DNA of 64,000 bases from Tessaracoccus antarcticus (GTDB lineage Bacteria; Actinomycetota; Actinomycetes; Propionibacteriales; Propionibacteriaceae), in contig NZ_REFW01000002.1 of the NCBI RefSeq assembly GCF_003688855.1, positions 310,001 to 374,000 of the forward strand, read 5' to 3'. Shown here one piece after another: positions 3,041 to 36,652 of this stretch (positions are counted from its first letter, which is position 1; each line of letters begins with the position of its first letter). A program made the position numbers and the translations under genes. The notes beneath the pieces were generated by a model that searched no databases, was not told the DNA's origin, and was given only the letters and a program-made list of their open reading frames with translations.

Positions 3041-3763
3041 CTACTCCTCATGGCTGGGATCAACGGGTTCTTGCGTGTGGACATCGGGCCCAGGGGTGGG
3101 CTCCTCGTGCGGGTCAAACAGTGCGTCGCGGGACAGTGCCGTGACCAGGATGTGGTGACCGGAGTCGACGTGGCGACGCATGGCCTCCTCGGCCGCAGGG
3201 CCGTCCCGGCTGCGAAATGCGTTCATGAGCACGCGGTGTTCACCGCTGGACTGGTCCATGCGGGAGCCGATGCGCAACTGGTAGCGGCGCAGGGCCAGCG
3301 TGATCAGCCGTAGGCGCTGCACCGTCTGGACGAGGCTGGCGTTGTTGGAAGTCATCAGGATGACGTCGTGAAATTGCTGGTTGGCCTCCACGAACGCTGC
3401 CGTGTCACCGGCCGCTGACATGTCCCGCATCCCGGCGTCCAGAGACTCCAGTTCCTCCAGCGTCGACGAGGTCATCTGCTCGGCGCAGAGCCGGGCGGCC
3501 AGGCCCTCCAGCACGGAGACGATCGGATAGATCTCATGGACCTGGTCGAGGGTGGGGAGGCTGATGCGCAGTCCGGAACCGTGCTTCTCGCAGAGCCCAT
3601 CCTGGACAAGCCGTCGCAGCGCCTCCCGCACCGGGGTCCGGCTCAGGCCGTACTGCTTCGCCAGCATGTCCTCCCGCACCACCTCTCCGGGACGCAGGAC
3701 CCGCCCCTGGATATCGGCGTAGACGGCTTGGTATACGCGCTCGGCTCCGGTGATTCGCGACAT
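3041..3763 (-). CDS. GntR-family (FCD/FadR subfamily) transcriptional regulator
   Basis: 240 residues: winged helix-turn-helix at about 5-75 with the typical LSRTPVREALRRL recognition segment, then an all-helical FCD ligand domain (about 85-215) whose D/H pattern (EANQQFHDVI; EHRVLMNAF) fits metal-assisted binding of an organic acid. I chose ATG 3763 rather than TTG 3772 because a GGGAG sequence is 9 bases before the ATG. First gene of the operon containing DUF1326, CcdA-like, CtaG-like and HisD-family genes, so probably its local regulator. Ligand unknown; FCD proteins often sense carboxylates. Confidence 0.88.
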   Translation of the reverse strand: MSRITGAERVYQAVYADIQGRVLRPGEVVREDMLAKQYGLSRTPVREALRRLVQDGLCEKHGSGLRISLPTLDQVHEIYPIVSVLEGLAARLCAEQMTSSTLEELESLDAGMRDMSAAGDTAAFVEANQQFHDVILMTSNNASLVQTVQRLRLITLALRRYQLRIGSRMDQSSGEHRVLMNAFRSRDGPAAEEAMRRHVDSGHHILVTALSRDALFDPHEEPTPGPDVHTQEPVDPSHEE

Positions 3764-3806
3764 GTGACTCAACTCCCAGGGCCACTGTATGCCAACTGGT
3801 TATTTC

Positions 3807-3816
3807 ATGTATACAT
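3807..3816. promoter_or_regulatory. Palindrome upstream of gntR, candidate autoregulatory operator
   Basis: ATGTATACAT is a perfect 10-bp palindrome 44 bp upstream of the chosen gntR start, in an AT-rich island inside GC-rich DNA. FCD-type GntR proteins often bind short GTATAC-centred palindromes, so this is a plausible site for the gene next to it. A 10-bp palindrome can arise by chance. Confidence 0.45.
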
Positions 3817-3946
3817 TGCCGTGCATTCGCCGGATGTGTTCGAACGATCGCACCTGCAGCGCAAGTTTTCGTTCGGAGTTGATGGGCGGGGCATGCTGGC
3901 GGTGGCGCCCGCCGGCGTCACACCCACTCACGAAGGCACAGCGTCC

Positions 3947-4594
3947 ATGACCCCGCTCGACCTTCTAGGCTGGCTCGCGGCCGCGCTCGGCATGTCCTCC
4001 ACCCTGCCGCAGTTGGTGCGTCTGTTCCGGGTGCGGCGTACCGAAGGATTGTCGCTCTCCCTGTTCCAGCTCAACGCGGCGGCATCGGCCGCCTGGGCCT
4101 TTCACGGCTACCTCGTGCAGCAGCCGCAACTGCAGTGGCCCAACATTGTGGTGCTCGTCCTCAGCCTGCTGGTGGTCGTCATGATCACGAGGGACCGCGG
4201 ACAGTCCTTCTGGGGGAAGCAGATCGTAGTGGCCCTGCTGGTGGCGGCGCTCATCTGCGTTGACCTGTGGCTCGGGCCCGTGGTGTTCGGCATCCTCGTT
4301 GCGCTGCCCTACGCCATCGGCGTTCTGTCCCAGCTGCGCTCCATGCATCGCGCCACGAGATTGTCGGGGGTCTCGCCCGTGTACCTGCTCGTGGCGTTCC
4401 TCGTGGAGGCGCTGTGGTTCATCTGGGGAGTACTGGTGTGGGAACTCGCCATCACTGTTTCCGCCGCCACCATGGGCGCCCTGTGTGCGGTCAACGTCGG
4501 GTACTGGGCGCACAGGCGATGGGGAAGAGGGCAAGGTCCCACCACCGGCGGGGGCGCCAGCCGGGAAACTGAGCCGGCGGACGCGCTGGCCTAG
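3947..4594 (+). CDS. PQ-loop/SWEET-like membrane transporter
   Basis: 215 residues with about seven predicted helices arranged as two PQ-loop repeats: LPQLVRLFR near residue 21 and a diverged LPYAIGVLSQL near residue 126. That is the duplicated SWEET/PQ-loop topology rather than the single-repeat bacterial SemiSWEET. Likely a small sugar or amino-acid facilitator in the cytoplasmic membrane; substrate cannot be read from the sequence. Start ATG 3947 gives a protein beginning just before the first helix; a GAAGG lies upstream. It ends 10 bp before proA and may be cotranscribed with it. Confidence 0.7.
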   Translation: MTPLDLLGWLAAALGMSSTLPQLVRLFRVRRTEGLSLSLFQLNAAASAAWAFHGYLVQQPQLQWPNIVVLVLSLLVVVMITRDRGQSFWGKQIVVALLVAALICVDLWLGPVVFGILVALPYAIGVLSQLRSMHRATRLSGVSPVYLLVAFLVEALWFIWGVLVWELAITVSAATMGALCAVNVGYWAHRRWGRGQGPTTGGGASRETEPADALA

Positions 4595-24436: not shown

Positions 24437-25726
24437 ATGAAGAAGCGAACAGCAATTACCGCCATGGTGGGTGCAACGGCACTACTGCTGGCAGCCTGCG
24501 GCAACGGGGGTGGTGGTGGTTCGGAGGAGACTGCGAACACCACAACCGGACCCATCACCGTCTGGTTCTCCAACAACGAGCAAGAGCTTGCCTGGGGCAA
24601 GAGCGTCACCGAGCAATGGAACAAGGACCATGCCGACCAGAAGGTCACGGCACAGGAGATTCCTGCTGGCGCCAGTTCGGAGGAGGCCATCACAGCGGCC
24701 ATCACCGCTGGAACGGCCCCTTGCCTGGTGTACAACATCTCGGCGGCTGCGGCTCCCCAGTGGGAGCGTCAGGGCGGCCTCATCGACCTCAAGACGTTCT
24801 CGGACGGCGAGGACTACCTCACCAAGCGCAGTGGGGACCTCCTCAACGGGTACAAGGGTCAGGACGGCGGTCTGTTCCAGGTGCCGTGGAAGTCGAACCC
24901 CGTGATGGTCATGTACAACAAGGACCTGTTCAAGAAGGCCGGGATCGACCCCGAGAAGCCGGACATGGACACGTTCGACAAGTTCATCGCCGCCTCCCAG
25001 AAGATTGTGTCCTCCGGCGCCGCCAAGGCGGCCATCTGGCCCTCGCCCACCAGCGAGTTCTTCCAGCCCTGGTTCGACTTCTACCCCGTCTACATCGCGC
25101 AGACCGGCGGCACCAACTTCGTGAAGGACGGCAAGGCGACGTTCAACGACGACAACGGCAAGGCTGTCTGGGAGTTCTTCCACACGCTGTACGCCGATGG
25201 CGTGTCACCCAAGGAGAAGTCGAACGACGACGCCATGGGAACAGGGGCGGCCGCCATGCAGATGGCCGGTCCGTGGGCCATCGCCTCGTACAAGGGGAAG
25301 ATCGATTACGGTTTCATGCCCGTCCCCACCAAGGATGGAAAGACCGCCGACGAGACATACACATTTGCCGACTCCAAGAACATTTCGATGTTCACGAGCT
25401 GCAAGGCCAACGGCACCGCGTGGGAGTTCCTGAAGTACACCACCAGCGAGGAGAACGACGGCGCTTTCCTGGAGGCGACGGGACAGATGCCCATCAGGCC
25501 GGGGTTGGAAAAGGCCTATCCCGAGTACTTCAAGGCCAACCCCGACTATGTGGCATTCGCCAGTCAGGCGTCCCGCACCGTCGACGTTCCCAACGTGGCC
25601 AATTCGGTGGAGATGTGGCAGGACTTCCGGAACAAGTACTCCGCCTCCGTGATTTTCGGCACCACCCCCATTCCGGACGGATTGGCCGCTGCAGAGAAGT
25701 CGGTCAACGACCTCATCTCCCAATAG
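24437..25726 (+). CDS. ABC sugar-binding lipoprotein (CUT1 type)
   Basis: 429 residues. Lipoprotein signal with lipobox LLAACG (Cys about 21) and a Gly-rich linker, then an extracellular solute-binding protein family 1 fold: TVWFSNNEQELAWGKSVTEQW, VPWKSNPVMVMYNKDLFKKAG, MQMAGPWAIASYKGKIDYG. Captures an oligosaccharide for the two downstream permeases. The GH130 gene at the end of the operon suggests a beta-mannoside or related glycan. No ATPase is encoded nearby, so a shared MsmK-like ATPase elsewhere is expected. Confidence 0.92.
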   Translation: MKKRTAITAMVGATALLLAACGNGGGGGSEETANTTTGPITVWFSNNEQELAWGKSVTEQWNKDHADQKVTAQEIPAGASSEEAITAAITAGTAPCLVYNISAAAAPQWERQGGLIDLKTFSDGEDYLTKRSGDLLNGYKGQDGGLFQVPWKSNPVMVMYNKDLFKKAGIDPEKPDMDTFDKFIAASQKIVSSGAAKAAIWPSPTSEFFQPWFDFYPVYIAQTGGTNFVKDGKATFNDDNGKAVWEFFHTLYADGVSPKEKSNDDAMGTGAAAMQMAGPWAIASYKGKIDYGFMPVPTKDGKTADETYTFADSKNISMFTSCKANGTAWEFLKYTTSEENDGAFLEATGQMPIRPGLEKAYPEYFKANPDYVAFASQASRTVDVPNVANSVEMWQDFRNKYSASVIFGTTPIPDGLAAAEKSVNDLISQ

Positions 25727-25733
25727 GTGTGCA

Positions 25734-26690
25734 ATGAGCACCTCGACCACGTCGCAGCGCCCACCCGATGACACGTTCACAGAGCCTCAACGCTCTCGCA
25801 GCCTGAAGGAGCGGCTGCTGGGCAAGCAGCCGTTGGGGCTGGTTTTCAGCGCACCGTATGTAGTCTTCCTGGCTGTGGTGTTCGCCTATCCCTTCGGGTT
25901 GGCCATCTGGATCTCGTTCCACGACTACATTTTCACCGCGCCCAACGTCAGCGTCCCGCATCCCTTCGTGGGCCTGCAGAACTACGTGACGGCCCTCACC
26001 GATCCCGCCGTCCTGCGGTCGTTCCTCAACACGCTGATCTTCCTGGTGATCAATGTGCCCATCACGGTGGTCCTGTCCATCGTTCTTGCCGCTGCCCTCA
26101 ACACCGGTATCCGGTGGGCGAGCGCCTTCCGTGTCGCGTTCTACGTTCCCTACGTCACAGCCAGCGTGTCCCTCATCGGCGTGTGGCTCCTGCTCTTCTC
26201 CCAGGGTGGGCTCATCAACAGCATCCTCGGCCCACTGGCCCCGGATCCGTCATGGCTCATCAACTCGAAGCTGGCCATGCCGTCCATCGCCATCTACGTC
26301 GCATGGAAGCAGCTCGGCTTCTACATCCTGTTGTACCTGGCGGCTCTGCAGGCCATCCCCAAAGAACTCTACGAGGCGGCATCCATCGACGGCTCGGGCA
26401 CCTTGGGCAAGTTCTGGAATGTCACGGTGCCGGGGGTGCGCTCAGCCACCGTCCTGGTGCTGATCCTCGCCATCATCACCGGGGCGAACCTGTTCACCGA
26501 GCCGTACCTGCTGACCAACGGCGGCGGGCCCGACGGTGCGTCGGCCACCCCCGTCCTCCTCATCTATCAAAAGGCGTTGCAGCAGACGAATCCCGACGTG
26601 GCATCCGCCATCGGGGTGGTTCTGGTGATCGCCGTCGGGATCCTGTCGGCATTGGCCAATCGTGTGGGGGGAGGGAGTGACGATGAATGA
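25734..26690 (+). CDS. ABC sugar permease, MalF-like
   Basis: 318 residues, six predicted helices after a polar N-terminus of ~35 residues. Carries the EAA loop YEAASIDGSGTLGKFWNVTVP (about 216-236) that contacts the ATPase. Pairs with the next permease to form the channel. Starts 7 bp after the binding-protein stop. Confidence 0.92.
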   Translation: MSTSTTSQRPPDDTFTEPQRSRSLKERLLGKQPLGLVFSAPYVVFLAVVFAYPFGLAIWISFHDYIFTAPNVSVPHPFVGLQNYVTALTDPAVLRSFLNTLIFLVINVPITVVLSIVLAAALNTGIRWASAFRVAFYVPYVTASVSLIGVWLLLFSQGGLINSILGPLAPDPSWLINSKLAMPSIAIYVAWKQLGFYILLYLAALQAIPKELYEAASIDGSGTLGKFWNVTVPGVRSATVLVLILAIITGANLFTEPYLLTNGGGPDGASATPVLLIYQKALQQTNPDVASAIGVVLVIAVGILSALANRVGGGSDDE

Positions 26691-27516
26691 TCGAGGACGA
26701 CGTGTGCTGCTCCACGTGGCGCTGGCCGCTGCGGCCCTGGTGTTCATCTTCCCGTTCTACTTCATGGTCATCGGGGCGTTCCAGGAGAATCCCACGAATG
26801 ACCCGTCGAGCCTCTTTCCCATCGGCGGATGGACCACACGCAACTTCAGCGACATCAACTCCCGCGTGCCGTTGGGGACCGCACTCCTGAACTCCGCCAT
26901 CTTCACGATCGGTGTTCTGCTGGGAACCCTGACGTTCGGCCTGCTGGCCGGCTATGCGTCGGCGCGGCTACGGTTCCGGGGTCGCTCCGTGGTGTTCGTG
27001 GCGATGCTGCTGGTCCAGATGATCCCATTCCAGTTGCTCATGGTCCCGTTGTACGTGCTTCTCACACGCACCTACGGCCTGGGTGACACCCACATCGGCA
27101 TCATCCTGCCGTTCCTGGTCAACACCACAGCGGTGTTCATCTTCCGGCAGTTCTTCCTGGGGCTACCCGAATCAATCTTCGAGTCGGCACGCCTCGACGG
27201 TGCGAGCGAGCTGAGAACGCTGTGGTCCATCGCTCTGCCGCTGGTGCGCCCCGCGTTCGTCACTGTCATCCTGGTGACCTTCATCGGGCCCTGGAACGAG
27301 TTCCTGTGGCCGTTCCTCATCACCAAGGACGTCACCATGCAGCCGCTGGCTGTTGCCCTGGCGAACTACATCACCAACGTGTCACAGACCGCGTCCAACC
27401 CCAATGGTGCAATCCTGGCCGGCGCCTGCGTGCTGGCGTTCCCTGTCGTCCTGCTCTTCTGCCTGTTCCAGCGCTACTTCACATCGACCGACGTCGGCTC
27501 CGGCGTCAAGGGTTGA
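26683..27516 (+). CDS. ABC sugar permease, MalG-like
   Basis: 277 residues, six helices, EAA loop ESARLDGASELRTLWSIALP at about 173-192. The ATG overlaps the previous permease by 8 bases. With 24437-26690 it makes a CUT1 importer lacking its own ATP-binding subunit. Confidence 0.92.
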   Translation: MNDRGRRVLLHVALAAAALVFIFPFYFMVIGAFQENPTNDPSSLFPIGGWTTRNFSDINSRVPLGTALLNSAIFTIGVLLGTLTFGLLAGYASARLRFRGRSVVFVAMLLVQMIPFQLLMVPLYVLLTRTYGLGDTHIGIILPFLVNTTAVFIFRQFFLGLPESIFESARLDGASELRTLWSIALPLVRPAFVTVILVTFIGPWNEFLWPFLITKDVTMQPLAVALANYITNVSQTASNPNGAILAGACVLAFPVVLLFCLFQRYFTSTDVGSGVKG

Positions 27517-27538
27517 CCCACCCCAAGGAGATCGCCCC

Positions 27539-28525
27539 GTGACCACCGTCTCCATCTTCGAGCACGCCACGTTCCCGCTGGGGCCGTTCGAACCGTACGA
27601 GCACAACCCCATCCTGCGCCCCGTGGGGGACACTTGGGAGTCCGCCAACCTCTACAACCCCGCCGCGTTGGTCGTTGACGACAAGGTGGTGCTGCTGTAC
27701 CGCGCCCATGCGGCGGACATCGTCTCCCACATCGGCATTGCCACCAGCGATGATGGCTTCCACTTCGAGCGGGAGGCAGCGCCGATCCTGTCCCCGGAGC
27801 ACGACTACGAGCGGTTCGGGTGCGAGGACCCGCGAGTGGTGTTCATCGACGGGACCTACTACCTCACCTACACCGGATGGGACAGACACCAAGCCCGATT
27901 GTGTCTGGCCACCTCCACGAATCTGCGGTCCTGGACCAAGCACGGCCCCCTGTTCGAGGACTTCGACACCTTCGCCACCGTCGCTCCGTGGGGCCACGGC
28001 TGGAGCAAGGCCGGCGTCATCGTGCCGTTCATGATGCAGGGCACGTGGTGGATGTACTTCGGCGAGGGCGCCATCTACTGGGCCACCAGCGACGACCTCA
28101 TCCACTGGACACCGGGAACGAGGGACACCGAGCCCATGTACACCCCGACGCCGTGGTCCTTCGACCGGGACCTCGTGGAGATCGGCACCTCACCCGTTCT
28201 CACCGACGGTGGCCTGCTGGTGATGCTCACCAACGGTGCCATCCGCCGCTGGCGGGGTGACCGGATGGACGTCGACTACCGCTGCGGGCAGATCGCCATA
28301 GACCCCAGCAACCCCAGGAAGGTCATGGCCCGCACGCAGGAGCCGTGGCTGGAGCCACAGTCGTTCGAGGAGAAACACGGGTTGGTTTCCAACGTCACGT
28401 TCGTGGAGGGGCTCGTCTTCTTCAAGGGCCGCTGGTTGGCCTACTACGGCCAGAGTGACACCACGTTGGCCGTCGCCATCCATGATCCGGCCCAGCCGTG
28501 GAGCACGGTGGGCTCGGGCGGCTGA
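27539..28525 (+). CDS. GH130-family glycoside phosphorylase/hydrolase
   Basis: 328 residues, five-bladed propeller of GH130 (formerly DUF377). HNPIL near residue 22, LYNPAALVVDDKVVLLYRA (38-56), and GCEDPRV (residues 94-100) with the GH130 general acid Asp97. GTG start with AAGGAG 8 bases upstream. GH130 phosphorylases split beta-1,4-mannosides to mannose 1-phosphate; some members hydrolyse. No signal peptide, so it acts in the cytoplasm on imported substrate. Phosphorylase versus hydrolase depends on phosphate-binding Arg/His residues I cannot place safely. Confidence 0.85.
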   Translation: MTTVSIFEHATFPLGPFEPYEHNPILRPVGDTWESANLYNPAALVVDDKVVLLYRAHAADIVSHIGIATSDDGFHFEREAAPILSPEHDYERFGCEDPRVVFIDGTYYLTYTGWDRHQARLCLATSTNLRSWTKHGPLFEDFDTFATVAPWGHGWSKAGVIVPFMMQGTWWMYFGEGAIYWATSDDLIHWTPGTRDTEPMYTPTPWSFDRDLVEIGTSPVLTDGGLLVMLTNGAIRRWRGDRMDVDYRCGQIAIDPSNPRKVMARTQEPWLEPQSFEEKHGLVSNVTFVEGLVFFKGRWLAYYGQSDTTLAVAIHDPAQPWSTVGSGG

Positions 28526-28580: not shown

Positions 28581-29843
28581 CTACTCAGACGCAGGCACAT
28601 CGAGCAAGGCAATGAACTGGTCGAGTACTGCACCGTTGCGCAGCGAGGTCACGAGTTCGTCGAAGCACTCCACCAGGTCCGGGACGATGCGGGAGACTTC
28701 CGCTCGCACTGGGGCGACCATGGCCATCGGGTTCTCCTTGGGCCTGGACAGCGTCAGTTGGTGCACCGCAAGCGCGACGCCAGGGATCACCACCTGTGGC
28801 TCACCCCACTGAGCCGTGAGGGAGAGTGCACCGAGAAACCGTTCACCTGGATTCAATTTGCGTTCGGGATCCCGTCCGACCCGCTCCACTGTGTCGTGCA
28901 GAGAAGTGTTGGCGAATCGCTCCATCAAGTCGTCCGAGTGGTGGATGAGGGCCGGAAGGGGTTGACCGTACTTCCTCGAAAGCGATCGTGCTGTGGCATA
29001 CATCGCACCACGGACGACACCGGCTATGCGGGGATCCAGGATGGACGGTGCAATCTCATCCTGACCCGCCAGCGCGCCCAGATACGCCGTCATGCAATGG
29101 CCGAGGTTGTGAATGTAGAGCTTGCGGTCGCTGTAGAACGAGAAGTCCACGTCGTGCCGCCCGAGTAACTCGGGGACGTCAGGGACGTCGGCGCGGCATG
29201 CAGCCACGTCGAAGGGGAGTTGCCGGTACGGCTCGACAGCCACGAGTGCCGCATGCTGCCTCTCTTGCGCCGCCGTCGGGACGGGAATCATGCGCCCGAT
29301 AGAGGTTTCAACGATGCCGATCCGCTCCAGGACGACAGCGACGTCGGGGACCTGCTGGCGGCTGAGTTCCTCCGTCAGCAGGCCGCGCATGATCGTGGCA
29401 CCGTCGTGAATGTTCTCGGCGAGGAACACATCCAGTGGTCCGTACCCCTTGGCGTGACGATCCGCGAGGCCGGCGGCAAGCGCTGCTGCCACCTGTGGCA
29501 AATTTCGGGCGCCGACGCTGGTGAACACCACGTCTGCCCCGAGGACTTCGCGGCGGACTGCGTCGGTGTCCTGGGCCGAGACGGCCGTGCATCCTGAGAG
29601 AGTCTTGCGGTGCACTCCAGAACTGGTCACAGTGTCGTGCCGGTAGGTGCCTGCTCCCAGCGCCGCGACGAGCGCGGCGGAGGACTCGACGAAGATGACG
29701 TTCCAGCCCGCGTCAAGAAGAATCTCCCCGATGAACCCCCGACCGACGGCGCCACCACCGAAGATGACTCCGCGTTTGCGCGGGTCTGGTGGGATGGCGG
29801 CTGCGTGGCAATCAGATGTCGACGGCATGTTCTGGTGATTCAT
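28581..29843 (-). CDS. Mannitol-1-phosphate 5-dehydrogenase-like polyol-phosphate dehydrogenase
   Basis: 420 residues, long-chain mannitol dehydrogenase family. Rossmann motif FGGGAVGRGFIGEILLDAG (about 28-46) and the catalytic/substrate segment SDRKLYIHNLGHCMTAYLG (about 238-256) with the family Lys, Asn and His. This KLYIHNLGH form is of the phosphate-using MtlD branch rather than of free-mannitol dehydrogenases. It would interconvert mannitol 1-phosphate (or another hexitol phosphate) and fructose 6-phosphate with NAD. ATG overlaps the lacI stop; last gene of the pfkB-lacI-mtlD unit. No mannitol PTS component is in the window. Confidence 0.85.
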   Translation of the reverse strand: MNHQNMPSTSDCHAAAIPPDPRKRGVIFGGGAVGRGFIGEILLDAGWNVIFVESSAALVAALGAGTYRHDTVTSSGVHRKTLSGCTAVSAQDTDAVRREVLGADVVFTSVGARNLPQVAAALAAGLADRHAKGYGPLDVFLAENIHDGATIMRGLLTEELSRQQVPDVAVVLERIGIVETSIGRMIPVPTAAQERQHAALVAVEPYRQLPFDVAACRADVPDVPELLGRHDVDFSFYSDRKLYIHNLGHCMTAYLGALAGQDEIAPSILDPRIAGVVRGAMYATARSLSRKYGQPLPALIHHSDDLMERFANTSLHDTVERVGRDPERKLNPGERFLGALSLTAQWGEPQVVIPGVALAVHQLTLSRPKENPMAMVAPVRAEVSRIVPDLVECFDELVTSLRNGAVLDQFIALLDVPASE

Positions 29844-30826
29844 CAGTGAATTCTCAGCGCGGTTTCGACGACGATGTGTCTGGTGGCACGACCGGGATCA
29901 GCGAGTCTGTCGAAGAGCAGTTGCGCTGCCATGGCGCCCATGGCGCGGTCGTCGTGCTCGATCACGAGGACGGGGCCGTTTTGCGTGTGACTCAGAGGGA
30001 ACTCGTCGAATGCGACGATGGCCACGTTCAGCCCCGATGTGTGAATCTCTGCGGCCGCGCCCAGTGCGCTGACATTGTTGGCGCAGAAAATGGCGTCCGG
30101 TGGTCGGGGGAGAGACAGAATCCGTGCGGTGGCAGCGCGAGCCTGGGACTCGGTGTGGATGTCCGGGATTGTCATCCCCGGTCGGACACGCAGCCCCTTC
30201 GCGGCAAGCGCTTCCTTGGCCCCCACGACCCTGGGCGCCATCGTCCTGAGCGCTGCGCTGTCGCTGAGTATCGCGAAGTCCCGCCTACCGATCGACACCG
30301 CGGCTGTGACAGCCTCACGCGTCGAGAGGAGGTTGTCGAATCCGACGCTGTCCACGTCCAGCCCCTCGAGCGGCTCGTCGATTGCCACCACCGGTGTGCC
30401 GAATGAGACCTCGGTGCAGATCAGGGGCGCCGTCATGGAGGTCGGCGTGATGAGAAGGCCCCGGGGCCGCTGCGAGAAGATGGCTTCGGTGAGCTGCGCT
30501 TCTCGTTCGGAAGAACCTTCGGAGCTGCAGGTGATGACGAGACAGCCGTGTTTCTGCGCCTCGTCGGCGGCCCCGGCAGCAAGGGAGGAGTAGAAGTTGT
30601 TGGACATGTCCCGGATGATCATGCCGACCATGTCGGAGGTGCCTGAGCGCATGGTCGCGGCTCCGCGGTGGGGGCGATATCCAAGCAGCGATGCGGCGGC
30701 CAGCACCCGAGCTCGCATGTGTGGAGCGACGGTCTCGACGCCGTTGAGGACACGGGACGCCGTCTTGATGCTCACGCGGGCCTCGTGTGCCACGTCGGTG
30801 AGGGTGGCGCGACGGCTCACGTTCAT
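29843..30826 (-). CDS. LacI-family transcriptional regulator
   Basis: 327 residues. HTH at about 8-29 (TLTDVAHEARVSIKTASRVLNG region) with the Leu-hinge, then a periplasmic-binding-like sugar domain (about 65-325). Overlaps the kinase stop and the dehydrogenase start, so it is made with the enzymes it probably controls. The 14-bp palindrome at 31862-31875 is the natural candidate operator for both arms of the divergon. The recognition-helix residues are the common VSIKTASR type. Confidence 0.92.
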   Translation of the reverse strand: MNVSRRATLTDVAHEARVSIKTASRVLNGVETVAPHMRARVLAAASLLGYRPHRGAATMRSGTSDMVGMIIRDMSNNFYSSLAAGAADEAQKHGCLVITCSSEGSSEREAQLTEAIFSQRPRGLLITPTSMTAPLICTEVSFGTPVVAIDEPLEGLDVDSVGFDNLLSTREAVTAAVSIGRRDFAILSDSAALRTMAPRVVGAKEALAAKGLRVRPGMTIPDIHTESQARAATARILSLPRPPDAIFCANNVSALGAAAEIHTSGLNVAIVAFDEFPLSHTQNGPVLVIEHDDRAMGAMAAQLLFDRLADPGRATRHIVVETALRIH

Positions 30827-31803
30827 CGGAGCGGGATCTGCCGCAGGTGGCGTCCGACCACGGTGCGTGCGTGCATCCCGGCCTCCATCGGCGTCATCCC
30901 ATTGATGATCGCGTGCAGGAGTCCGGCCGTCAATGAATCACCGGCTCCGACTGTGGTGACCGGGTTTTCCGAGCGGTCTGCCGGGAACCATAGTTGCTGG
31001 TCAGCCCACGCATCAGCGTGTCCGGAGAGTGCCATCCCCGCCTCGCGCAGGCGCTCCGCCGAACCAGTGTGAAGTGCGAAACCGAGACTCCCCGCGGAGA
31101 GGGACACCACTGCCACCCCCCAGGCCAACAACTCCTCGGCAGCCTGCTCGAGCTTCTCTCGGGTTGGCTCGGAGTGGTTGTGGAGGGCGCTGGTGACGTC
31201 GTCCCAGCTGGGAGTGCAGACGTCGACGAACGGCAGGGTCAGCGCGAACCAGGCCCGCCAGTCAACCTTGGAGGCGACCGAACCTTCGCCCACATGGGCC
31301 AGGTCGAGCGACGTGGTGATACCCCGCTGTTTGGCGGCGGCGAAGGTTTCGGCCATGGCGTTGGGCTGTTCGCAGGTCAGGGGGAGCAGGGATGGGTAGC
31401 CGATGTGAAGGACCCCGGGTGCCGAACTGTCAAGGTCGATCTGTCGCGGATCGAAAGTGGCGTTCGAGCCCTCGTGCTGCCAAAAGGTTCTGTCGTGTTG
31501 TCCGTGCTCCACCACGATGCTGTAGGAGGAGGACAGCGGGGAATCGACCATGCGTACCCTGCCTCCCCGAGCGGCAAGCTGTGTGCGGCAGATCTGGCCG
31601 AGTTCGTCTTCACCCATGGTGACGGCGAGTTCGGTGTCGGCACCCAGGGCGAGCAACGTCCCGCTGGTGTTGGGACCGGACCCTCCGACCTTGAACCGGA
31701 GGGGACCCGCGGGGTAGAGGATGCCGGGCTCCAGACCTGGGCGCCTGTCACCAAGCTCCGGTGTGATGTCCATACAACAGTGACCTGCCACCAGTACCAG
31801 CAT
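30823..31803 (-). CDS. PfkB-family carbohydrate kinase
   Basis: 326 residues from ATG 31803, set by a very strong AAAGGAGG. Ribokinase/PfkB fold: N-terminal GHCCMDITP and KVGGSGPNTSGTLLALG (Gly-Gly substrate site, about 38-54), C-terminal VTTVGAGDSLTAG with catalytic Asp289. Substrate cannot be assigned by sequence; in this unit, a polyol or hexose taken up unphosphorylated is the likely one, giving the phosphate used by the MtlD-like enzyme or ManA. First gene of the minus-strand unit. Confidence 0.88.
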   Translation of the reverse strand: MLVLVAGHCCMDITPELGDRRPGLEPGILYPAGPLRFKVGGSGPNTSGTLLALGADTELAVTMGEDELGQICRTQLAARGGRVRMVDSPLSSSYSIVVEHGQHDRTFWQHEGSNATFDPRQIDLDSSAPGVLHIGYPSLLPLTCEQPNAMAETFAAAKQRGITTSLDLAHVGEGSVASKVDWRAWFALTLPFVDVCTPSWDDVTSALHNHSEPTREKLEQAAEELLAWGVAVVSLSAGSLGFALHTGSAERLREAGMALSGHADAWADQQLWFPADRSENPVTTVGAGDSLTAGLLHAIINGMTPMEAGMHARTVVGRHLRQIPLR

Positions 31804-31861
31804 GTCGCATCCCTCCTTTGGGTCGGACCATAACGAACTTGTCTCAGTCGTGAACAATCCT

Positions 31862-31875
31862 AGACAACGTTGTCT
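31862..31875. promoter_or_regulatory. LacI-type operator, perfect 14-bp palindrome
   Basis: AGACAACGTTGTCT is fully self-complementary with the central CG typical of LacI-family sites. It is 58 bp upstream of the kinase ATG and 100 bp upstream of the binding-protein ATG, central in the 172-bp divergent gap. A further half-site-like ACTTGTCTC is at about 31838-31846. The regulator gene is the second gene of the leftward operon. Confidence 0.75.
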
Positions 31876-31975
31876 CGTCTGTGTAAAGCTATCGCTCAGC
31901 TCAATGACGAGAATGAAAGCCGGGCTGTCCTTGAGCCCTCGTAACCCGGCAGACAACCCAACCCAAGGGGCAACG

Positions 31976-32935
31976 ATGAAGTTCATCCCACGCAAGACAC
32001 TCGTAGCCATCGCTGCGGTGTCGCTGTTGGCCTCGGCCTGCACCACCGGCGACGAGACCGACGCAAATACTCCCGGAGAAGGAAAGGCCAAGGTCGAGAG
32101 CGTCGGCCTCATGCTCCAGGACATCTCCAACCCGTTCTTCGCTGCGATGCAGACGTCGATGACCGAAGAAGCGAAGAAGCAGGACTTCAAGCTGAACGTT
32201 CAGGACGGACGTCAGGATCTTGCGGCACAGAATGACCAGATCGACGCGTTCATCCAACAGGGCGTCGATCTGATCCTCATCAATGCCGTCGACAGTGAGG
32301 GCATCGCCTCCGGTGTCGCACGCGCACAGGCCGCTGGCGTGACCGTCGTAGCGGTGGACGTCGATGCCACAGGAGCCGACGCAGCCGTGACAACGGACAA
32401 TGTTGAGGCCGGGCGCCTGGCGTGCCAGTCGCTGGTGGACAAGCTCGGCGGCAAGGGCAACATCCTCATCGTCGAGGGCACTCCCACGACGGCCCCACAG
32501 GAACGTGTCAAGGGTTGCGAGGAAGTGCTCGCTAAGAACCCGGACATCATGGTTGTCGGCCGCCAGGCCGGCAAGAACGACCGTGCGAGCGGTTTGGCCC
32601 TGACCACCGACATGCTGACGGCCAACGCGGACGTCAACGGAATCTTTGCGATCAATGACCCGGAGGGGTTGGGCGCAGACCTGGCCGTCCAGCAGGCGGG
32701 CCGGGATGGCATCGTCATCGTCGGCGTGGATGGGTCACCCGAGGCGGTTCTTGCACTGAAGGACGACAAGTCCAACTTCTGGGCAACTCCTGCCCAGGAT
32801 CCAGGTGGCATGGCTCTCAAGGCACTGGAGGTTGGACAGGAGATCGTGGGCGGCAACAAACCGGCAGATCGTGTAACGCTCCTCAACCCCACTATCGTCG
32901 ATCGCGACAACGTTGGCGAGTACGGCGGCTGGTGA
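31976..32935 (+). CDS. CUT2 ABC sugar-binding lipoprotein (RbsB-like)
   Basis: 319 residues with lipobox LLASACTT (Cys about 22). Type I periplasmic-binding fold of the ribose class: VGLMLQDISNPFFAAMQTSM, LILINAVDSEGIASGVARAQ, FAINDPEGLGADLAVQQAG and VGVDGSPEAV. AAGGGG is 5 bases before the ATG. First gene of the rightward arm; such proteins bind monosaccharides or polyols. It starts 100 bp after the palindromic operator. Confidence 0.93.
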   Translation: MKFIPRKTLVAIAAVSLLASACTTGDETDANTPGEGKAKVESVGLMLQDISNPFFAAMQTSMTEEAKKQDFKLNVQDGRQDLAAQNDQIDAFIQQGVDLILINAVDSEGIASGVARAQAAGVTVVAVDVDATGADAAVTTDNVEAGRLACQSLVDKLGGKGNILIVEGTPTTAPQERVKGCEEVLAKNPDIMVVGRQAGKNDRASGLALTTDMLTANADVNGIFAINDPEGLGADLAVQQAGRDGIVIVGVDGSPEAVLALKDDKSNFWATPAQDPGGMALKALEVGQEIVGGNKPADRVTLLNPTIVDRDNVGEYGGW

Positions 32936-32962
32936 TCTGACTCGTCGGAGAGAAGGACGCAC

Positions 32963-34519
32963 ATGGACCAAGTCCTGGAAGATTCCCCCCTCTTGGAAGT
33001 CAGGGGCATCAGCAAGCGTTTCGGTGCAACACAAGCACTGAGCGACGTGAGCTTCGACCTCCGGCCTGGTGAGGTTCATGCGCTCATGGGTGAGAATGGT
33101 GCCGGCAAGTCGACACTGATGAAGATCATTGCCGGCACCTACAGCCCTGATTCCGGCTCCATTCACATGATGGGCAATCAGATAGTCATGGCATCCCCCA
33201 GAGATGCCATGACTGCCAAGGTTGGGATCATTCACCAAGAGCTCAACACGTTCCCCGAAATGTCGGTGGCGGAGAACTTGGCGGTGGGAAACGAGCCCAC
33301 CACTTCGTTCATGCTGAATCGTCGGAAGATGATCAGCGATGCCCGGGAGAAGCTCGAGCGGGTCGGTGCCGTCAACATCGATCCCAGGACCCCCATAGGG
33401 CGACTCAGCGTCGGTATGCAACAAATGGTGGAGATCGCCCGGGCCGTGGCGGAAGACGTCAAGGTCCTGGTCCTCGATGAGCCGACCGCGGCCCTGTCGA
33501 TGAGCGAGTCCAAACAACTCTTCGGGCTCATTCACCAAATGCGTGACAGGGGGATGGGGCTGATCTACATCTCCCACCGTATGGAGGAGGTATGGGAACT
33601 CGCTGACCGTGTCACTGTCTTTCGGGACGGCAAGCTCGTCGGTACCAAGGACATGCGCGCGGCGGGCCGCGACGCCGTCTCCCCGAACGACATCGTCAGA
33701 ATGATGGTGGGTCGCGACGTCGATGACCTCTATGGTCGCGAGGAACGCGAACTGGACAAGGTGCGCCTCGAGGTACGCGATCTCACCGACGGCGGGGCCA
33801 TTGGTCCGGTGTCATTCGACGTTCGTGCTGGGGAGATCGTGACGATGGTCGGACTCATCGGCGCCGGTCGCACTGAGGTGGGCCGTTTGCTGTACGGAGC
33901 CGACAAAGTGGCCGCCGGCACCATCTCGCTGGATGGGCGACAGATCCGGGTCAGGAATCCGGGTGACGCCGTTGCCAAGGGCATCGGCATGTTGCCGGAG
34001 AGCCGCAAGGATCAGGCGCTGTTCTTGGAGATGTCGGTGCGTGACAACACGGCCATGTCCACACTTGGGGCTTTCTCCACCTTCGGGGTGCTGAACTTCC
34101 GCAGGATGAAGAGCAAGGTGGATGAAATCTTCACCTCACTCCGCGTGCGGGCGGCTTCGCAGAGCATCGAATCGCGCAGTCTGTCCGGTGGCAATCAGCA
34201 GAAACTGGTGCTCGGCCGCCTCATGTTGGAAAAACCCGCGCTCATGATTCTCGACGAGCCCACGCGCGGCGTTGACATCGGGGCAAAGAGTGAGATCTAC
34301 CGCATCATCAAGGAGATCGCCGCAACCGGTACAGCGGTGCTGGTGATCTCCTCCGATCTCCCCGAAGCACTGGGCATCAGCGATCGACTACTCGTCATGC
34401 GCGAAGGCCGGATCGTCGCTGAAATGGACGCCCAGAGCGCTACCGAGGAAGTCGTCATGGAACACGCAACCGGCGTGTACGCCGATCAAAACCCGAGGAT
34501 GACACATGAGCAGCCCTGA
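32963..34519 (+). CDS. CUT2 ABC sugar-importer ATPase (RbsA-like, two NBDs)
   Basis: 518 residues with tandem ATPase domains. NBD1: Walker A GENGAGKST (about 43-51), signature LSVGMQQMVEIARA, Walker B VLVLDEPTAAL. NBD2: degenerate Walker A GLIGAGRTE, signature LSGGNQQKLVLGR, Walker B LMILDEPTRGVD. This asymmetry is normal for the family. Overlaps the permease start by 14 bases. Confidence 0.95.
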   Translation: MDQVLEDSPLLEVRGISKRFGATQALSDVSFDLRPGEVHALMGENGAGKSTLMKIIAGTYSPDSGSIHMMGNQIVMASPRDAMTAKVGIIHQELNTFPEMSVAENLAVGNEPTTSFMLNRRKMISDAREKLERVGAVNIDPRTPIGRLSVGMQQMVEIARAVAEDVKVLVLDEPTAALSMSESKQLFGLIHQMRDRGMGLIYISHRMEEVWELADRVTVFRDGKLVGTKDMRAAGRDAVSPNDIVRMMVGRDVDDLYGREERELDKVRLEVRDLTDGGAIGPVSFDVRAGEIVTMVGLIGAGRTEVGRLLYGADKVAAGTISLDGRQIRVRNPGDAVAKGIGMLPESRKDQALFLEMSVRDNTAMSTLGAFSTFGVLNFRRMKSKVDEIFTSLRVRAASQSIESRSLSGGNQQKLVLGRLMLEKPALMILDEPTRGVDIGAKSEIYRIIKEIAATGTAVLVISSDLPEALGISDRLLVMREGRIVAEMDAQSATEEVVMEHATGVYADQNPRMTHEQP

Positions 34520-35507
34520 CATCGCGGCCGCGTCCGCGGTACCGCAGAAGACCCGCAGCATTCTGGCCCAGATGGGCTTCTGGTGGGACAAGGTCGGCAT
34601 CTTCGCTGTCCTGGTTCTACTGTGCATTTTCATGTCCATCATGGCGCCGTACTTCCTCAGCATCGACAACGGCCTCAACGTGGCGCGATCTGTCTCGATC
34701 AACGCCATTCTTGCTGCAGGCATGACGATGATCATCATCACGGGAGGCATCGACCTCTCCGTCGGATCCATCCTTGCCGTCTCCGGCGTCACTGGGGTCC
34801 TCCTGTTCGTCGCCGGAGTGCCAAGCCCCTTGGCGTTGTTGGGTGGCGTCGCTGCGGGGGCCCTTGCAGGATTCATCAATGGCGCTTTCGTCGCCTGGCT
34901 GGCACTGCCCGCCTTCATCGTGACGCTGGGTTCCATGACCTATCTCCGAGGCATCGCCTATTCGCTCCTCGAAGGGCAGCCACTCATCAGCTCAGACCTC
35001 GGTTACCGAGCCATTGGCAATGGAGCGGTAGCGGGCATCCCGACACCCGTTGTCGTGATGGTCGTCGTCTATCTCGTGTTCTGGTTCATTCTCGAACGCA
35101 CGAAGTTCGGGCGCCATGTCTACGCCGTCGGCGGGAACATGGAAGCCGCGCGGCTGGCCGGTATCAACGTGAAGAAGGTCCTCCTTGCTGTGTACACCAT
35201 CGGTGGCGCGGCAGCTGGACTTGCGGGCATCATCTTCTCCGCACGAGTGCTCTCTGCGCAGCCAACGGCGGGGCAGAGCTACGAACTCGATGCCATCGCA
35301 GCCGTTGTGTTGGGTGGCACATCGCTCATGGGGGGCCGTGGGCGAGTCATCGGAACCCTCGTCGGGGCCCTGATCATCGGCGTTCTCACCAACGGTCTTG
35401 TCCTCATGAATGTCCCGTTCTTCTATCAGCTGATAGTCAAGGGAGTCGTGATCGTGATCGCGGTCGCAATCGACAGTCTTCGCCGATTCGGCAAGTCGGG
35501 CACCTGA
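34506..35507 (+). CDS. CUT2 ABC sugar permease (RbsC-like)
   Basis: 333 residues, about ten helices, with the RbsC hallmark GGIDLSVGSILAVSG (about 79-93) and YAVGGNMEAARLAGINV, ISSDL-type loops. Forms the membrane channel with the RbsA-like ATPase. Overlaps the ATPase gene. Confidence 0.95.
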   Translation: MSSPDIAAASAVPQKTRSILAQMGFWWDKVGIFAVLVLLCIFMSIMAPYFLSIDNGLNVARSVSINAILAAGMTMIIITGGIDLSVGSILAVSGVTGVLLFVAGVPSPLALLGGVAAGALAGFINGAFVAWLALPAFIVTLGSMTYLRGIAYSLLEGQPLISSDLGYRAIGNGAVAGIPTPVVVMVVVYLVFWFILERTKFGRHVYAVGGNMEAARLAGINVKKVLLAVYTIGGAAAGLAGIIFSARVLSAQPTAGQSYELDAIAAVVLGGTSLMGGRGRVIGTLVGALIIGVLTNGLVLMNVPFFYQLIVKGVVIVIAVAIDSLRRFGKSGT

Positions 35508-35641
35508 CCGTCATCGGGGCGCACCAGCCTCTTTGACACGCCATGGGGGTCCTGCACCGAATTGGCCCCTCTCGAAGCGGGATTCCGAGGTGATGACTCG
35601 CTTGCGGATTCCGCACCCTCTCGACAAGGAGCGAAAAAACC

Positions 35642-36652
35642 ATGCAACCACTCCTCCTGCCCGCCAACCAACCTGCTGACCGGTTCTACCGTGGTGGACC
35701 AGCCATCAGGGCGTTTCGTCGCGGTCAGGGGGCAGCTGGCGACTTCGTCCCCGAGGACTGGGTGGGTTCCACAACGACTCTGTTCGGGGAGGACAGGCTG
35801 GGACTTACCACCCTTCCCGACGGGAAGGTCCTTCGTGATGCGATTCTCGAAGAACCGGGCCGGTGGCTCGGGCAGAATCATCTGGATAGTTTCGGCGTCG
35901 ATCCAAAGATCCTCGTGAAATTGTTGGATGCGGGTGAACGGCTTCCAGTCCATGCTCACCCGGATGTCTCCTTCGCCGCTGAACATCTGGGGGCTGCGCA
36001 CGGCAAGGCTGAGGCATGGTTTGCTCTGGCCCCCGGGACGGTCCATGTGGGCCTCAAGCGCGACATCTCCCGGCAAGAACTCCTGGATCTGATGTCCAGT
36101 CAGAACACCACTGAACTCCTTGGACTGTTACACGAGAGGAGGCTGGAGCCGGGGGACACGTTATTCGTGCCCCCGGGCACCCTCCATGCCATCGGTGAGG
36201 GCAACTTCGTCGTCGAGGTGCAGGAACCGGAGGACATGTCGATTCTGGCGGAGTGGAAGACGTTCGCCATCGACGGGGCCAAGGACGGTCATCTGGGGCT
36301 GGGGTTCAACCGTGCGGTGGACGCGATCGATCGCCGCGGATACTCCGACGCCGAAGTGGATTCTCTGATTACTCGGCAGCGCACAGGACCCAGCATCCTC
36401 TCGCCGTTGGCCGACGACTATTTCTGCGTCGCACGCTGCGATGTCGACGGTGAAGCCCTCATGCTCCCGGCGATGTTTCAGGTGCTCATCATGGTGAGCG
36501 GAGAAGTGGAGCTCGCGAGTCAGGGGGGCGACATTGCCATGCGCAAGGGAGACACCGTCCTCGTGGGTCATGGGTGTGGGGATGTCAGACTCACCGGCAG
36601 CGGCTCCGTGGTCGCGGTTCTGCCACCGCTGAGGGCTGCCGCACCCAGTTGA
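35642..36652 (+). CDS. manA: Mannose-6-phosphate isomerase, class I
   Basis: 336 residues, zinc cupin. Metal ligands in LPVHAHPD (about 100-107), the Glu of GKAEAWF (about 121-127) and the His of VPPGTLHAIGEG (about 175-186). Converts mannose 6-phosphate to fructose 6-phosphate. AAGGAG is 9 bases before the ATG. Located 134 bp after the permease, same strand; with the kinase and MtlD-like enzyme on the other arm it points to a hexitol or mannose route. It is shorter than E. coli ManA, as many actinobacterial and firmicute forms are. Confidence 0.88.
   Translation: MQPLLLPANQPADRFYRGGPAIRAFRRGQGAAGDFVPEDWVGSTTTLFGEDRLGLTTLPDGKVLRDAILEEPGRWLGQNHLDSFGVDPKILVKLLDAGERLPVHAHPDVSFAAEHLGAAHGKAEAWFALAPGTVHVGLKRDISRQELLDLMSSQNTTELLGLLHERRLEPGDTLFVPPGTLHAIGEGNFVVEVQEPEDMSILAEWKTFAIDGAKDGHLGLGFNRAVDAIDRRGYSDAEVDSLITRQRTGPSILSPLADDYFCVARCDVDGEALMLPAMFQVLIMVSGEVELASQGGDIAMRKGDTVLVGHGCGDVRLTGSGSVVAVLPPLRAAAPS

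Follow-up and report, generated by a model that had tools for sequence, protein, structure and literature searches.

Which sugar is served by a cluster of genes that joins a CUT2-type importer to a relative of mannitol-1-phosphate dehydrogenase, with no gene of the phosphotransferase system (PTS) among them? The question is raised by a divergon of seven genes at positions 28,581 to 36,652 of a 64,000-nucleotide stretch of the Tessaracoccus antarcticus genome (contig NZ_REFW01000002.1, positions 310,001 to 374,000; hereafter the window). A PfkB-family kinase, a LacI-family regulator and an MtlD-like dehydrogenase on the minus strand face a binding protein, an ATPase, a permease and a ManA-like isomerase on the plus strand. 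An earlier note, made from the letters of the window alone, had described this arrangement and proposed that a hexitol or hexose enters unphosphorylated, is phosphorylated by the PfkB enzyme and is oxidised or isomerised to fructose 6-phosphate. The genes stand where that note placed them, and scans with Pfam and NCBIfam, whose names are valid at family level, confirmed the families and found none of the seven genes to be of PTS type. Our own answer, to which we give a probability of about one half, is that the divergon serves to break down a monosaccharide of mannose configuration, independently of the PTS and under LacI control; D-mannose is the likeliest candidate, and D-lyxose would be a further substrate.

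Computed comparison of gene content, co-occurrence, conservation, operator and residue states leaves the unit itself real, conserved and operator-defined. A kinase profile search of the 36 genomes of the genus group (G000-G035) matched nine, and the MtlD-like gene adjoins the kinase in all nine. One of them is Tessaracoccus coleopterorum (G008), where stops or frameshifts interrupt the frames of the kinase, of MtlD and of their neighbours, reflecting either a decayed locus or assembly errors; because of its split frames this locus (L086) was left out of the count of 43 kinase neighbourhoods given below. All seven genes, whose co-occurrence elsewhere the earlier note had proposed as a check, are found together in three congeneric genomes: G026 and G025 (loci L049 and L050), which share the genus of the window's 3.65 Mb genome, and G007 (L053). 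The content is the same in these three and the order differs, ManA lying between LacI and MtlD. LacI, ManA and MtlD also stand at a contig end in G029 (L056). A xylulokinase gene follows the permease in L049 (TIGR01312, 380.8 bits against a cut-off of 380.25), as does a similar gene in L050. A second architecture (L051, L054/L169 and L057) combines the kinase and MtlD with a gene of the D-mannose isomerase family, below its cut-off; L051 and L169 carry a CUT2 importer different from the window type.

The two arms share a perfect 14-bp palindrome with a central CG, AGACAACGTTGTCT, at positions 31,862 to 31,875 in the divergent promoter region, where it is a putative operator. Even palindromes with a central CG are given as the rule for LacI-type regulators in PMC4052901, and the regulator of the divergon (29,843 to 30,826, minus strand) carries PF00356 and Peripla_BP domains, although it reaches no NCBIfam cut-off. 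The window holds seven perfect 14-bp palindromes including this one, so that a single window offers weak evidence; the strength of the earlier claim of a shared site comes from conservation. The own genome contains one exact copy, and the other 395 genomes of a phylum sample of 396 contain none; with two mismatches allowed, eight further places appear in the own genome against one for a reversed control. With at most one mismatch, the site occurs in 18 of 22 kinase-bearing genomes, 17 of which have it no more than 8 kb from the kinase (reversed control, four places); these genomes were picked by kinase presence, and many are closely related and thus not independent. Operator frequencies are taken from these 22 genomes, since 14 of the 43 kinase loci (L148, L153-L158, L161-L165, L167 and L168) were fetched for their operator. 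Among 398 genomes of the Microbacteriaceae, the family of the Microbacterium genome discussed below, 25 carry the exact site and the reversed control none. Of 22 such places in 21 genomes, 14 are at the kinase, two at a CUT2-LacI-ManA divergon and six at neither, the operator standing without the kinase family or the CUT2 importer in L147, L149, L150, L151, L152 and L166. Because genome searches show this conservation near the kinase, the operator is, as far as sequence can tell, the mark of a real regulon in several families. As a separate observation, ten sites with at most one mismatch lie on two contigs of a Schumannella metagenome-assembled genome (G461; L170 and L171), with GH2-type, GH36 and CUT1 genes nearby; a broader glycan regulon may share this operator.

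The importer carries the first indication of substrate. It consists of a binding protein (31,976 to 32,935, plus strand; PF13407, Peripla_BP_4, 191 bits), an ATPase with two ABC domains (32,963 to 34,519, plus strand; PF00005 in two stretches) and a permease (34,506 to 35,507, plus strand; PF02653, BPD_transp_2, 156 bits), as expected of the CUT2 class. Against LmuZ, LmuX and LmuY of Escherichia coli, identity reaches 46-48% for the binding protein, 46% for the ATPase and 50% for the permease, while the binding protein is 31% identical to ribose-binding protein. We compared 16 pocket positions known from the ribose-binding protein literature. Six of them (S9Q, T10D, R90V, S103T, F164N and F214V, one change being conservative) differ from ribose-binding protein in all nine proteins of the group, which disfavours ribose as the ligand, and 13 of the 16 are identical to LmuZ, with D10, V90 and V214 in common. 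On pocket and overall identity, the importer resembles its mannose/lyxose counterpart more closely than it does the ribose-binding proteins in the comparison. The earlier suggestion that an unphosphorylated sugar is brought in without a PTS, under a single LacI operator, is supported.

The second indication comes from the ManA-family (cupin) protein (35,642 to 36,652, plus strand; PF21621, 39.6 bits). Fold and family are those of type I ManA, as represented by 1qwr (Bacillus subtilis ManA) and the Salmonella enzyme; however, the protein misses the curated cut-off of TIGR00218 (71.7 against 116.2 bits) and differs in two motifs. Firstly, the arginine of the TYR motif in 1qwr is replaced by leucine in nine of nine aligned members from five lineages, and by motif also in L148, L159 and L160; the ManA of L153 falls outside the pattern, and a different motif stands in the ManA-like genes of L063-L066. 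This arginine (R274 in Salmonella ManA) is presumed to contact the phosphate, and the structure of an R274A mutant of the Salmonella enzyme is among the structure matches. Secondly, HxH stands in place of K/Q-x-H, the metal motif of type I ManA. A second ManA above the TIGR00218 cut-off is encoded elsewhere in the own genome, so the gene of the divergon need not be the housekeeping copy; the latter has a VLRGG motif, matched by eye and out of register in the subfamily alignment. The model of the ManA-like protein (pLDDT 76, with low-confidence stretches) matches phosphomannose isomerase structures in fold, and we claim no active-site geometry from it.

The company kept by the ManA-like gene points the same way. 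Eight loci combine the window type of CUT2 importer with the operator: the window, L049, L050 (one mismatch), L053, L083 (Mobilicoccus), L075 (Microbacterium), L159 and L160; the second CUT2 importer of G028 (L093) and a contig-end match in G023 (L094), having no such operator, were left out. LacI is present in all eight, the ManA-like gene in seven, the kinase in six, MtlD in four and xylulokinase in three. In L159 and L160 the core of operator, importer, LacI and ManA has neither MtlD nor a kinase of this family in the stretch, and the kinase profile at E 1e-20 matches nothing in either genome. Other aldose isomerases accompany related kinases: D-mannose isomerase family genes lie within 2.2 kb of the kinase in L051, L057, L169 and L172 (two scanned, at 356 and 387 of 600 bits; the rest by similarity), and a D-lyxose isomerase (PF07385) 49% identical to E. 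coli LmuI adjoins the kinase in L084, a Chloroflexota relative. The loss of the presumed phosphate arginine, the partnership with the importer where this kinase family is absent and the D-mannose and D-lyxose isomerase genes found in its stead lead us to predict that the ManA-like enzyme is a free-sugar mannose/lyxose isomerase. In L054/L169, L057 and L172 a gene separates the isomerase from the kinase; it was considered as a mutarotase and is not used as evidence, PF01263 matching the L054 protein only at E 0.017 (14.9 of 27 bits) and the L085 protein not at all.

The remaining two enzymes are less easily placed: none of the three (kinase, MtlD-like and ManA-like) reaches an NCBIfam cut-off, and exact functions can thus not be read from annotation. 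The kinase (30,823 to 31,803, minus strand) is a divergent member of the PfkB-family carbohydrate kinases, with PF00294 above its cut-off (56.9 bits), a GAGD motif and a ribokinase fold in its AlphaFold2 model (pLDDT 94; identity to the listed solved structures does not exceed 22%). Substrate does not follow from the fold, the Foldseek/VIA matches being ribokinase-fold kinases of many specificities. The MtlD-like enzyme (28,581 to 29,843, minus strand) belongs to the mannitol-1-phosphate 5-dehydrogenase family, with both domains above cut-off (PF01232, Mannitol_dh, 83.2 against 27 bits; PF08125, Mannitol_dh_C, 72.1 against 30.7) and PDB 3h2z matched at E 2e-47; its best NCBIfam score for an MtlD equivalog is 176.8 of 368 bits, so we class it as MtlD-like only. 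In the Staphylococcus aureus mannitol-1-phosphate dehydrogenase (SaM1PDH), PMC6623548 describes phosphate bound by Arg283, Arg287 and Arg294, residues not conserved in mannitol 2-dehydrogenases. R324, R328 and R335 of the window protein align with these three, and K241, N246 and H249 with Lys200, Asn205 and His208. R328 and R335 are invariant in 12 of 12 aligned rows, and R324 is glutamine in L055 and L056. Since the triad is kept, the enzyme should take a phosphorylated substrate, in line with the assignment in the earlier note. The same paper reports that SaM1PDH prefers reduction of fructose 6-phosphate at neutral pH, and a reductive role in the window is therefore possible.

From these observations we infer the substrates, the order of steps and the part played by MtlD. 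The CUT2 importer would bring in free sugar, judging from homology and pocket, and the ManA-like enzyme would isomerise it unphosphorylated, mannose to fructose and lyxose to xylulose. The PfkB kinase may then phosphorylate the ketohexose, by analogy with the fructokinase activity of E. coli LmuK. The MtlD-like dehydrogenase would be an addition of the Tessaracoccus group acting on fructose 6-phosphate or mannitol 1-phosphate, and LacI would sit on the palindrome until released by the sugar or one of its derivatives.

The analogy is with lmuKAIZYX of E. coli OI-167, in which, according to PMC10128022, an aldose enters through a CUT2 importer, the D-lyxose/D-mannose isomerase LmuI acts on it (mannose to fructose) and LmuK, for which fructose kinase activity is reported, acts on the ketose. 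The same paper states that the locus supports growth on lyxose, for which isomerase and importer mattered and lmuK and lmuA were dispensable, and that on mannose it had an effect only when the regulator was overexpressed in a manA mutant. Common to both systems are the 46-50% identical importer, a PfkB-family kinase, PTS independence and, in the model of the lmu authors, a free-sugar isomerase. The lmu locus has a PF07385 lyxose/mannose isomerase, a class II aldolase (PF01116) and a two-component regulator of its own, whereas the window has a ManA-family isomerase, the MtlD-like dehydrogenase and LacI with its 14-bp operator. Neither a PF07385 isomerase nor a ketose aldolase is among the seven genes, and although the importer is of the LmuXYZ kind, we would say that the divergon works like the Lmu system by analogy rather than file it as a member. 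LmuK scores 88 bits against the profile of the 43 kinases, and eight of the nine other PfkB matches in the genome of the window score at most 65.6.

Several observations weigh against the mannose reading. Compared directly, the kinase of the window and LmuK hardly match (25% identity across 232 residues, E 0.027); their relationship is visible through the profile alone, where the margin over the next PfkB protein is 22 bits, and fructokinase activity is therefore proposed by analogy. Mannose breakdown does not require MtlD, which nevertheless stands next to the kinase in all nine kinase-bearing genomes of the genus group. The loss of the ManA arginine, whose phosphate-binding role is presumed, would be compatible with phosphate binding by other residues. 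L160 has a PfkB gene resembling ribokinase at 1.3 kb from the permease (TIGR02152, 215 of 299.65 bits), and in L159 such a gene lies some 5 kb from ManA, so that the absence of a kinase there means absence of the window family. L075 lacks ManA and pairs importer and kinase with a D-psicose 3-epimerase-like gene and a DeoC/LacD aldolase (L075 positions 3394-4347 and 399-1274), and where sister loci pair the kinase with an aldolase, a 1-phosphate would be a fitting product. A long-type gene of the mannitol dehydrogenase family stands 3.8-7.6 kb from the kinase at 15 aldolase-linked loci, out of 24 of that kind and out of the 35 kinase loci that have no phosphate-type MtlD nearby. Finally, a related importer in Agrobacterium (binding protein 42% identical) lies beside a gene annotated as mannitol dehydrogenase family; the pocket of its binding protein differs from both the window type and LmuZ at positions 10, 15 and 90.

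In the hexitol route proposed in the earlier note, free mannitol would be imported, converted by PfkB to mannitol 1-phosphate and oxidised by MtlD to fructose 6-phosphate, leaving ManA for a side substrate. The intact phosphate triad of MtlD and the strict adjacency of kinase and MtlD in the nine genomes speak for such a route. Neighbours of the 43 kinases were surveyed within 8 kb by bit-score thresholds (70 bits for MtlD): a DeoC/LacD aldolase was found at 24 loci (family assigned by Pfam for four of these), a phosphate-type MtlD at eight, neither at 11 and both at none. All eight MtlD loci belong to the genus group, with none among the 35 others. In the kinase tree, MtlD-linked and aldolase-linked kinases split with one change each (support 96/95, with a long-branch warning), which would allow a different product for the kinase of this clade. 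The hexitol route is also favoured by the polyol-type dehydrogenases that lie close to relatives of the kinase and of the importer. However, phosphate-type MtlD is absent from 35 of 43 kinase loci, the core of L159 and L160 does without both this kinase family and MtlD, the importer pocket matches the mannose/lyxose type, and several lineages have aldose isomerases near the kinase. Our data thus do not support the supply of MtlD by a polyol kinase as the main route, and we consider the reading unlikely; what stands of the earlier interpretation is PTS-free import of free sugar, the single LacI operator, the co-occurrence and the phosphate-site arginines.

It is likewise doubtful, if conceivable, that the Tessaracoccus-clade PfkB is now a hexitol kinase, serving a PTS-free mannitol 1-phosphate route that shares importer and LacI operator with a free-mannose pathway. 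Were this so, the point in the kinase tree at which phosphate-type MtlD takes the place of the aldolase would mark a changed kinase product, the long-type dehydrogenases near sister kinases would represent an older polyol link, and a route without PTS would lead to an intermediate usually tied to one. The known pathway to that intermediate, PTS-based MtlA-MtlD, occurs in the genus group (L058); its MtlD belongs to the same family and has the phosphate-site arginines, while the seven genes of the divergon include no PTS gene and their MtlD-like protein is 28% identical to that of L058 and below every listed MtlD cut-off.

The sister loci deserve description in their own right. In Microbacteriaceae, the same operator accompanies the kinase at 17 loci (L073, L076, L078, L080, L081, L154-L158, L161-L165, L167 and L168) that also encode a DeoC/LacD aldolase and a Gfo/Idh/MocA oxidoreductase and constitute an unnamed kinase-aldolase pathway; most of them have the long-type mannitol dehydrogenase family gene 3.8-7.6 kb away. 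These long-type enzymes (PF01232 with PF08125) fell below the 70-bit threshold of the neighbour survey and were found on a later check, the match in L162 being partial. About 25% identical to the MtlD-like enzyme of the window, they belong to the free-substrate branch; six that were scanned score 343-353 of 603 bits as fructuronate reductase and 320-342 of 600 as D-arabinitol dehydrogenase. Most simply, they would convert a polyol to a ketose ahead of the kinase.

Phosphorylation might instead come first, with PfkB as a mannokinase making mannose 6-phosphate and the ManA homologue converting it to fructose 6-phosphate. The modelled ManA fold is compatible with a phosphomannose isomerase, and kinase and ManA (at least 45% identity) lie within 8 kb of one another in ten of the 43 kinase loci. 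This sequence of steps nevertheless seems quite improbable given the loss of the presumed phosphate arginine in nine of nine members, the ManA above cut-off elsewhere in the genome, the partnership of ManA with the importer but not with this kinase family in two genomes, and the free-sugar isomerase families found in place of ManA.

Polyol use of the kind found in Pseudomonas fluorescens would have the dehydrogenase oxidise free mannitol or arabitol to fructose or xylulose ahead of a PfkB fructokinase and a xylulokinase (L049, L050). The Pseudomonas dehydrogenase is of the PF01232/PF08125 family and the importer of the CUT1 class. According to PMC11519228, that organism relies on a single ABC transporter together with a mannitol/sorbitol dehydrogenase and the fructokinase MtlZ. 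The divergon likewise has an ABC importer, a dehydrogenase of this family and a putative fructokinase. The xylulokinase after the permease, over its cut-off in L049 and by similarity in L050, adds to the likeness, and the long-type dehydrogenases of the 15 aldolase-linked loci would suit such chemistry there. For the window this is very improbable, its dehydrogenase being of the phosphate-using rather than the free-polyol type: it scores 165 bits to 3h2z and 20 to the mannitol 2-dehydrogenase 1lj8, and its arginine triad is intact. The importer is CUT2 in the divergon and CUT1 in Pseudomonas. A sulfosugar route, with sulfonate for phosphate, is suggested by the PF07221 isomerase, PfkB kinase and PF01791 aldolase that recur around this kinase family and that PMC9594981 gives for the E. 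coli yih pathway of sulfoglycolysis, and is extremely improbable here, as the seven genes include no aldolase, the scanned window genes no member of a sulfonate family, and the binding-protein pocket loses rather than gains positive charge (R90V).

If D-mannose, or D-lyxose, is the substrate, the divergon offers a testable, operator-defined regulon for PTS-independent use of these sugars in Actinomycetota. Its ManA subfamily may comprise free-mannose isomerases annotated as mannose-6-phosphate isomerases, and such enzymes are of practical interest for the conversion between mannose and fructose. The kinase family, moreover, appears with a changed downstream partner, an aldolase in some lineages and a phosphate-type MtlD in others. 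Among the open-licence papers listed in library searches we recognised no description of the PfkB-MtlD pairing or of this regulon, which is no proof of novelty.

Some further observations concern the surroundings of these genes. A scan of the genome collection with the window dehydrogenase gave no match, and a plasmid search for PfkB gave two weak matches, of which the one inspected had no annotation. Plasmids of Citrobacter (L177) and Pseudarthrobacter (L175) encode LacI, a PfkB kinase and a relative of the importer, together with a protein some 450 residues long that has no Pfam match at E 0.001. A second window-type importer (binding protein 76% identical) precedes dapB, without recognised sugar enzymes, in G028 (L093, C1:806000-825900), and dapB also adjoins the permease in L052 and L053. 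On the minus arm of the window, lacI overlaps the MtlD-like gene by 1 bp and the kinase gene overlaps lacI by 4 bp. GC content at third codon positions is 0.71-0.79 in the seven genes, 0.85-0.89 in two presumed heme genes (one scanned, as aminotransferase class III; the other as named by the earlier note) and 0.78-0.91 in seven other flanking genes. The lower value reported earlier for the arm is thus correct and recurs in the L053 orthologues, while the transfer it was taken to hint at is weakly evidenced by it. Lastly, convergent with the MtlD arm, positions 24,437 to 28,525 on the plus strand encode a CUT1 binding protein, two permeases and a GH130 enzyme resembling beta-1,2-mannosidase or mannobiose phosphorylase, below NCBIfam cut-offs. 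The GH130 and CUT1 queries found no match in L049, L050 or L053; in the window itself, these genes possibly place a source of mannosides next to the mannose unit.

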